A stretch of DNA of 64,000 bases from an uncultured Clostridia bacterium. GTDB lineage: Bacteria; Bacillota; Clostridia; Oscillospirales; Acutalibacteraceae. The position numbers were made by a program, and so were the translations under genes. Location: contig CANRPD010000002.1 in the NCBI GenBank assembly GCA_947632385.1, positions 30,803-94,802 of the forward strand, written 5' to 3'. Shown here piece by piece: positions 2,431-33,597 of the stretch; the first letter of the stretch is position 1; every line of letters starts with the position of its first letter. The notes beneath the pieces were generated by a model. It saw only the letters and a list, made by a program, of their open reading frames with translations. It did not search any database and was not told the DNA's origin.

Positions 2431-2484
2431 GCCGCGGCCCCTGCCGGGACAGGCCAAGCCGCGGCCCCTGCCGGGGCAGGGCAA
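2431..2484. repeat. tandem duplicate of a 27-bp hairpin unit
   Basis: GCCGCGGCCCCTGCCGGGACAGGCCAA followed directly by GCCGCGGCCCCTGCCGGGGCAGGGCAA. Confidence 0.85.
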
Positions 2485-2628
2485 CGCCGCGGGCAAGTGA
2501 CTACAAGACGAAGGTGGGCCGTCGCGCCCACTGGTCTGCCTATCTCGCTCGATTGCACCCACCCAGCGGTCCGAAGTCCATTTTGCCCCACCCAAAAAAT
2601 CATCTCGCCTGCCCCACCCGCCGCCCCC

Positions 2629-2707
2629 GTCTCGCCGCCTGCTCCGCGGGCGCTTTTGCTCCGCAAAAGGAAGGGTGGGCCAAGGACAGGCCCACCCTTC
2701 GCGAGAC
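2629..2707. repeat. four-way-junction motif copy A1
   Basis: GTCTCGC(2629-2635)/GCGAGAC(2701-2707) closing stem; hairpins 2636-2652, 2653-2669 (CTTTTGC-TCC-GCAAAAG) and 2670-2700 (GAAGGGTGGGCC/GGCCCACCCTTC). Confidence 0.9.
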
Positions 2708-2942
2708 GGCCCGCCAGTGCCCCGCCCGTCCAAACCAACGCATTGTCACCTTCAAACAAAAGGAAAAGCGCCGCGCCCATTAGTTTACATAATTCAAATT
2801 TCACACAACTCAACCCGCCCTGCAAACCCGTCCCACCGTCCTATTTCCACTCCGACCCTTCCCGTCGGGTTCCGGGCCCTTTTTGCGCCCTTCCGGTCCA
2901 CTTCCGGTATGGTTCCACCCCTGTTTTTGCCCGTTCCCGACA

Positions 2943-2962
2943 TTTGTTCAAATATGAACAAA
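2943..2962. repeat. 8-bp inverted repeat in conserved AT-rich block (array A)
   Basis: TTTGTTCA-AATA-TGAACAAA; identical in array B at 32993-33012. Confidence 0.85.
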
Positions 2963-2983
2963 TTGTAAATTTTAATTTTTTTC

Positions 2984-3012
2984 AAAAAAGTTTCCCTCTC
3001 CAGGGAAACTTT
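2984..3012 (-). terminator. Rho-independent-like terminator on minus strand (array A)
   Basis: Minus strand: AAAGTTTCCCT-GGAG-AGGGAAACTTT followed by a T run (CTTTTTTG); same structure in array B. Confidence 0.6.
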
Positions 3013-3425
3013 ACCCCTTTTAATAGGGGATATATGGAGGCCCTTTGCAGGGCATGCATGTCGCGCCTCGCGCGTCCCGCGCTGACACCTACTGGAAACC
3101 AGTGAGCCGTCGCGCCCGCCGGTCCGTGCCCGGACGGGGCGAAGCCGCACCACAGAGCCTACTGGACGAAAATGGGTCGTCGCGCCCGGCCCCTGCCGGG
3201 GCGGGGCAACGCCGCGGGCCAGCGCGTACTGGAAAAAAACGAGTAGTCGCGCTCGCCAGCCTCCTCAACCCGCCAGCACCTCCCGCGCAACCCCCCAACT
3301 TGCACGAACCCCGCCGCAACCCCTCGATTTCCAGCTCCAACCCGCTCAATTCCCCCCGCCAACGAACTGGAACCGCTTCTGGCCCCACCGAAAATTTTCA
3401 TCTCGTCCGCCCACCCACCTCCCCC

Positions 3426-3504
3426 GTCTCGCCACCTGCTCCGCAGGCGCTTTTGCTCCGCAAAAGGGAGGGTGGGCCAAGAACTGGCCCACCCTCCGCG
3501 AGAC
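3426..3504. repeat. four-way-junction motif copy A2
   Basis: GTCTCGC(3426-3432)/GCGAGAC(3498-3504); CCTGC-TCC-GCAGG; CTTTTGC-TCC-GCAAAAG; GGAGGGTGGGCCA/TGGCCCACCCTCC. Confidence 0.9.
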
Positions 3505-3695
3505 GGCAGCCCCTGCCGGGGCAAGGCAAGTCGCGGCCCCTGCCGGGGCGGGGCAAGTCGCGCCATGGTTTCTTCATTCGTCCAGTCAAATACCGCGCCG
3601 AAAGTGCCTGCAACTTGCACCAACCCCGCTCGAACCCCCGCAAAACCGTCCCGGACCCTGCCGGGACCCTGCCGGGACCCGGCCGCAGCCGTCCC

Positions 3696-32387: not shown

Positions 32388-32615
32388 ACTTTTCGGCGAC
32401 AAGAGACAGTATACCTGATTTGCCCCCGTTTGTCAACAGGAAAATGAAAAAAAGTCCGTGGCCCCGGTCCGTGGCCGGACTGGCCTGTGTCGCGGCCCCT
32501 GCCGGGGCAGGGCAAGTCGCGCCTCGCGCGTTCCGCGCTGACGCTTGCTGGACGAAAATGGGTCGTCGCGCCCTCTAGCCTGCAAAACCGGCCAGTGGCC
32601 CCACCCGCCGCCCCC

Positions 32616-32694
32616 GTCTCGCCGCCTGCGCCACTCGGCGCAGGCGCTTTTGCTTCGCAAAAGGGGGTGTTCCTTCAGAACACCCTCGCGAGAC
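32616..32694. repeat. four-way-junction motif copy B1
   Basis: GTCTCGC/GCGAGAC; CGCCTGCGCC-actc-GGCGCAGGCG; CTTTTGC-TTC-GCAAAAG; GGGGTGTTC-cttca-GAACACCCT. Confidence 0.9.
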
Positions 32695-33030
32695 GGCCCG
32701 TGCCCGGGCAGGGCAAGCCGCGCCCAAGCCCCTACTTTATTCCAGTAAGTCGTCGCGCCCGCCGGTGGCCCGGCAGGCCTGTGTCGCGGGCCTGCGTGTA
32801 CTTGAAAAAAGTGGGTCGTCGAACCCCGGCAGTTTACATAATTCACATTTCACACAACTAAACTCGCCCTGCAAGCCCTTCTTCCCGCCACGACTCCGCC
32901 CAAACTCCTTCCAGCCCACTTCCTGCCCCTTTTTGCCCCTTTCTGGTCCACTTCCGGTATGGTTCAGGCCCAGTTTTGACCCTTTCCCGACATTTGTTCA
33001 AATATGAACAAATTGTAAATTTTCAATTTT

Positions 33031-33063
33031 TTTCAAAAAAGTTTCCCTCCCCAGGGAAACTTT
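33031..33063 (-). terminator. Rho-independent-like terminator on minus strand (array B)
   Basis: Minus strand AAAGTTTCCCT-GGGG-AGGGAAACTTT then TTTTTT run; same structure as 2984-3012. Confidence 0.6.
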
Positions 33064-33343
33064 ACCCCTTTTAATAGGGGATATATGGAGGGGTCCGTAG
33101 CCGGACTGGCCCAGTCGCGCATCGCGCGTTCCGCGCTGATTCCTACAAAAATCAAAGCGAGTCGTCGCGCCCACTACTCCGCAAAACTCGCCAGCTTCTC
33201 CTGCGAAAACCGCCAACTTGCACAAACCTCGCCGTAACCCCTCGATTTCCCGCTCCAAACCGCTCAATTCCGCCCTGAAACCATCCGGAACCGCACTTCA
33301 CCCCACCGAAAATTTCCATCTCGCCCGCCCACCCGCCTCCCCC

Positions 33344-33427
33344 GTCTCGCCACCTGCTTCGCAGGCGCTTTTGCTCCGCAAAAGAGGGGGATGGGGTCCA
33401 AGGTCAGACCCCATCCCCCCGCGAGAC
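33344..33427. repeat. four-way-junction motif copy B2
   Basis: GTCTCGC/GCGAGAC; CCTGC-TTC-GCAGG; CTTTTGC-TCC-GCAAAAG; GGGGGATGGGGTC/GACCCCATCCCCC. Confidence 0.9.
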
Positions 33428-33597
33428 GGCAGCCGGTGGCCTGGCAGGCCAAGTCGCGCCTTGGTTTCATTCATTCAAACAGATCCTTTCCGCGCCGAAA
33501 GTGTCTGCAACCCGCCCAAACCCCCAAAAAACAGGCCGGGACCCGGCCCGTTGGGGCCCGATCCCGGTCCTTTGCTCCACAGGGTGCGTGTTCGGGC

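Follow-up and report, generated by a model that had tools for sequence, protein, structure and literature searches.

Can a bacterial repeat keep its fold while most of its letters change, and what might such an element do? This question is raised by a 64,000-nucleotide stretch of contig CANRPD010000002.1 (assembly GCA_947632385.1, an uncultured Clostridia bacterium), hereafter the window, in which several short units fold as four-way junctions, or cloverleafs, with arms that differ in sequence and remain complementary.

Cloverleafs of the window and the J subfamily

The window contains four cloverleafs, all on the forward strand. Copy A1 (2627–2709) comprises a closing stem (2627–2635/2701–2709), arm 1 (2636–2652), an A/T-rich middle arm (2653–2669), and arm 3 (2670–2700), with a predicted fold of −60.3 kcal/mol. 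The others are A2 (3424–3506), with one A.C mismatch in arm 1; B1 (32614–32696), with a long arm 1 and an arm 3 of the GTGTTC class; and B2 (33342–33429), with an arm 3 of the GATGGGGTC class. An initial annotation of this DNA had located the copies at 2629–2707, 3426–3504, 32616–32694, and 33344–33427, given three of them as 79 nt, placed the inner hairpins of the first at 2636–2652, 2653–2669, and 2670–2700, and described a 10-bp arm 1 in B1. We find the same positions and lengths, the 33344 copy being 84 nt. The closing stem, by contrast, is 9 bp (CCGTCTCGC/GCGAGACGG) rather than the 7 bp first reported. To call the repeat perfect was a slight overstatement, as the 3426 and 33344 copies carry an A.C mismatch in arm 1 (CACCTGC/GCAGGCG). 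Three hairpins fill the interior of the junction, and linkers are absent or almost so.

These copies belong to a subfamily, which we name J. BLAST and sequence-pattern searches of the assembly (1.96 Mb, 76 contigs) recover about 40 J copies, of which 38 are intact and measure 76–92 nt from stem to stem. A four-way junction, linker-less or nearly so, is predicted for all 38. Arm 2 is near-invariant (CTTTTGCTCCGCAAAAG); arm 1 falls into three main classes and arm 3 into about seven, which combine freely as blocks between copies. A C-rich leader with consensus CCCACCCGCCTCCCCC stands directly 5' of A1 (2611–2626, forward strand), with equivalents 5' of A2, B1, and B2. It is conserved immediately 5' of nearly all J copies, and its opposite strand is G-rich.

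The J four-way junction and its covariation are real. For 35 distinct arm 3 sequences, own halves pair with a mean energy of −25.6 kcal/mol versus −15.6 kcal/mol for swapped halves, and none of 5000 permutations is as good. The same test on arm 1 likewise gives 0/5000. In a sequence-only MAFFT alignment of the 38 J copies, the covariation score is 0.156, against 0.059 ± 0.006 in shuffled alignments (0/500 reach it) and a maximum of 0.060 once pairing partners are slid. Arms 1 and 3, the third arm included, thus covary as first proposed. The further step from compensatory change to selection on structure is less secure: arms swap as blocks between copies, and near-exclusive Watson-Crick pairing could also arise by template-switch repair of palindromes. 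Compensatory change alone is therefore no proof of selection.

What the initial annotation did not see is that the window copies belong to a single subfamily borne by intergenic mosaics of about 1 kb, which look mobile. The strand of these mosaics is fixed; they share an AT-rich core and have two alternative sequence contexts 5' of the cloverleafs. Mosaic A (2431–3695, forward strand) lies between convergent genes and holds two cloverleafs, the core, and pseudoknot-hairpin modules. Mosaic B (32400–33597, forward strand) has the same module order and lies between a tRNA gene/U32-peptidase-like gene and a NifU-like gene. The core (2935–3056, forward strand) includes a palindrome, TTTGTTCAAATATGAACAAA, and a hairpin, AAAGTTTCCCT/AGGGAAACTTT, and has 28 BLAST matches in its own genome; its second copy (32985–33091, forward strand) is 98% identical. 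Considered as simple transposons, the mosaics have boundaries that vary from one to another. They are species-specific. The core has a 20-bp palindrome and two small hairpins ending GGGGATATATGGAGG, and parts of its hairpin also occur in two species of the same genus (L057 and L058).

A second structured repeat is found at about 134 places in 29 mosaics. It consists of a 5-bp hairpin with the loop TGCC, TGGC, or TAGC, as in the example at 3122–3142 (forward strand), where the hairpin GTCCG-TGCC-CGGAC is followed by a partial loop complement. An exact loop complement (GGCA, GCCA, or GCTA) stands two bases 3' of the stem, as in a pseudoknot, in 99/134 cases; permutation gives a mean of 49 and a maximum of 68 in 10000. 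The stems of these hairpins vary too, with 11 types.

Solitary cloverleafs of the wider family

Cloverleafs also occur outside J. A covariance model of J, run over 29 genomes of the genus, matches a dozen further elements in its own genome and one in a relative, all different in sequence but no worse as cloverleafs. When linker-less four-way junctions are sought with a descriptor, 438 kb of the genome yield 50 elements with scores of 33 or more; these regions had been picked for J or model matches, so that densities are not unbiased. A third-order Markov control of part of these 438 kb gives none. A further 768 kb yields 5 elements (score at least 32) versus 0 in the control. Four copies at two loci, as first reported, have become 38 intact J copies and at least 38 solitary cloverleafs outside J (J model, descriptor scan, and a second model). 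The genome thus holds about eighty cloverleafs, with most letters differing and one shared four-armed form.

Most solitary cloverleafs have no overall sequence in common, and their arms are mostly unrelated. The closing stem often ends CGCC/GGCG, arms 1 and 3 are GC-rich, and the middle arm usually has T4–6 on its 5' side and A4–6 on its 3' side. Four solitary members carry the J closing stem CCGTCTCGC, which links them with J. In a 48-row alignment fitted to the model, paired cells make up 98.7% versus 72.8% in shuffled data, and two-sided changes number 306 versus 82 and are present in 27/29 pairs; this alignment leans toward structure and contains both strands of some elements, and divergent members were found partly via their pairing. 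Families of this kind escape repeat and RNA searches that rely on sequence: the 38 J copies came from BLAST, and the solitary ones emerged only via structure. A short hairpin of type CCGGCGGGGAGCCGCCGG adjoins several solitary cloverleafs (L009:4372-4390, L009:6321-6340, L030:5371-5390, and L012:2942), as if the two formed one cassette.

Gene-end placement and possible functions

Members of the wider family are found at the 3' ends of genes and resemble transcription terminators. A stop codon lies no more than 80 nt from 25 of the 29 placed solitary cloverleafs, and the median distance is near 16 nt. Of these 29, 11 occupy convergent gaps, 14 co-directional gaps, and 1 a divergent gap; the gaps of the remaining three are truncated where a contig or locus ends. 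Each of the 14 co-directional cases has its cloverleaf closer to the stop of the preceding gene than to the start of the following one. Gaps between two gene 5' ends account for 1 of the first 23 solitary elements with both neighbors called, versus 43/157 gaps (p=0.017). These placements use our own codon-model gene calls, seeded with four stretches of the window that were recognized as genes by eye, rather than a curated annotation. Greedy longest-ORF and self-trained gene calls were dropped: in this genome, with its 65% G+C, they selected shadow ORFs on the antisense strand.

Solitary cloverleafs have the layout of an intrinsic terminator: shortly after a gene ends comes a stable GC-rich hairpin and, 0–3 nt farther on, a T-rich tract. 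Under a simple rule that asks for a stem of 6 bp or more, a spacer of 0–3 nt, and 5 or more T in 8, an arm plus the middle-arm T-run passes at 18/25 gene ends that bear a solitary cloverleaf; at the other seven, the T-runs are weaker or farther off. Another canonical terminator is present at 3/25 cloverleaf ends versus 43/95 plain ends (Fisher p=0.0023). Ordinary terminators of this genome frequently end in TTTTTGC, like the middle arm.

The J copies, those of the window included, do not lie just downstream of genes. None of the 38 is within 80 nt of a gene end (distances 92–1349 nt), because they are placed inside the mosaics. Of 34 gene ends that face such a mosaic, 18 have another canonical terminator. 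The number of J copies is more likely due to their amplification along with the mosaic, and a terminator role for the window copies would be at most incidental.

Structure, covariation, family size, 3'-end placement, the T-run, the lack of other terminators, and gains at two loci relative to the closest relative are all direct results. We favor, tentatively, a reading in which a solitary cloverleaf comprises two opposed intrinsic terminators in one compact element, with J as an amplified subfamily. RNA polymerase arriving from either side would first transcribe a GC-rich hairpin, which is arm 1 on one strand and arm 3 on the other, and next a run of 4–6 T in the palindromic middle arm that both hairpins share (GCTTTTTGC...GCAAAAAGC). 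Should polymerase read through, the full-length transcript can fold as a four-way junction, which might protect the 3' end of the upstream message. Termination or 3'-end protection itself is inferred. If the terminator reading is true, a single compact element halts transcription arriving from either direction, and what is conserved is its fold rather than its sequence; with diverse copies present in one genome, this is directly testable.

Several observations sit poorly with a plain RNA terminator. The closing stem is unnecessary for termination. Non-Watson-Crick pairs are few, at 22/1001 (2.2%) in solitary cloverleafs, whereas this genome's ordinary terminators have 53/613 (8.6%), a difference not expected from RNA function alone. 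On the sense strand of solitary cloverleafs, G.T and A.C pairs number 3 versus 2, and there is no real G.T excess on either strand. At the nrnA-truB junction, this genome carries a cloverleaf where the two genes overlap in the closest relative searched (G016) and stand less than about 25 nt apart in several other relatives. That cloverleaf has no evident new promoter, has a T-run of only 4, and fails the terminator rule. The ribF-rpsO spacer is roughly 150 nt longer than in G016, and the extra stretch contains a cloverleaf. These two comparisons indicate gains of cloverleafs, at least one of them within an operon. Both that gain and the near absence of G.T pairs speak for an additional, DNA-level process.

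The main rival of the terminator reading is a DNA-level one. Here the cloverleaf would be a mobile (non-autonomous) or recombining repeat; a host enzyme would recognize its four-way junction, either single-stranded or cruciform, and its placement at gene 3' ends would reflect no more than the slight harm that insertions cause there. Almost pure Watson-Crick pairing agrees with this, as do the two gains at sites where the closest relative has a short spacer or none, the near-duplicate pairs (one 400 bp apart in L030, the other formed by L092 and L247), and the amplification of J within mosaics. Nevertheless, recent mobile copies should be alike in overall sequence, which most solitary copies are not; no target duplication is seen by eye; and harmlessness alone leaves both the placement 2–50 nt after stop codons and the missing ordinary terminators unexplained. 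We consider this reading unlikely, although if true it would make the cloverleafs a repeat family recognized by its four-way junction, near a recombination intermediate in shape. REP sequences act as stabilizers in some operons. A comparable role here, in which the folded RNA blocks exonucleases and uncouples the expression of upstream and downstream genes, would fit the constant position on the gene 3' side in co-directional gaps, inside an operon too, and the very stable predicted folds (−53 to −83 kcal/mol). The conserved A/T middle arm and the missing other terminators suit termination better, however, and G.U pairs are lacking, so that we regard a stabilizer as more doubtful still. Least probable is the absence of any selected function, with perfect arms kept by template switching and arm exchange and copies spread by recombination: arms do combine freely as blocks and one-side-changed intermediates are rare, but the fixed four-arm layout, the A/T middle arm conserved in unrelated copies, and the gene-end placement would go unexplained.

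Known systems and distribution among genomes

The placement of solitary cloverleafs resembles that of bidirectional intrinsic terminators. In both, a GC-rich hairpin stands beside a T-run just 3' of stop codons, often between convergent genes, in place of other terminators. Unlike bidirectional terminators, the cloverleaf has two hairpins that face each other across a shared T/A palindrome, a fourth stem that closes the four-way junction, and arms almost without G.T pairs. Fungal mitochondrial double-hairpin elements are likewise interspersed and conserved in form rather than sequence, but they comprise two hairpins and belong to organelle DNA; a literature search, in which subscription journals were poorly covered, found nothing on them.

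Cloverleafs also share features with REP, BIME, and REPIN sequences, which are inverted repeats interspersed between genes, arranged in mosaics and close to gene 3' ends. These repeats have been proposed to act in termination and in mRNA stability (PMC3733652, PMC3116915). REPs and REPINs carry an unpaired GTAG or CGTC tetranucleotide at one hairpin end; GTAG-tagged REPs go with a REP-associated Y1 (RAYT) transposase, and CGTC-tagged ones have no associated transposase (PMC3733652). The cloverleaf differs in being an 80–110 nt four-way junction rather than a single 20–40 bp hairpin and in having arms mostly unrelated between copies. No cloverleaf has an unpaired tag; the CGTC of the J closing stem is base-paired, and it is missing from many solitary copies. 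A PF01797 search of the genome detects no Y1 (RAYT) transposase, while control genomes gave matches. In both respects the cloverleafs differ from REPs and REPINs.

Searches of RNA families also return nothing similar. Rfam finds only tRNAs in the window, and the elements themselves have no convincing match even at a permissive threshold, in keeping with the initial annotation, which had recognized no class. It had noted the absence of a tRNA consensus as well; no tRNA covariance model matches the elements, and a tRNA or tRNA-like identity is rejected. A literature search on cloverleaf, four-way-junction, or double-hairpin elements, again with subscription journals poorly covered, found no relevant paper. 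The cloverleaf may represent an undescribed class of element, possible but on the doubtful side, in which a DNA or RNA four-way junction would be the working form, all four stems would turn over, transcription would be stopped both ways, and the element would spread as a repeat.

The cloverleaf family is restricted to very few of the genomes searched, and only one carries many. With the second model, 2/29 genomes of the genus are positive, namely its own and G016, which has four elements. Under the stricter filters applied to the order- and class-wide searches, the order adds one further genome of 197 (G045, from another family, with one element), and among 391 genomes of the class none but its own is positive. 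J has no DNA similarity match in 24 species of the same genus, plasmids, or phages, and exact-pattern scans of GTDB genomes and viral contigs gave no match to its pattern. A scan with a generic middle-arm pattern returned 24 stretches, of which just one, from the closest relative, is a real cloverleaf. One cloverleaf of G016 (L144:1500-1585) is not at a gene end but in an apparent 5' leader, preceded by a promoter-like sequence and followed by the start of a metF-resembling gene.
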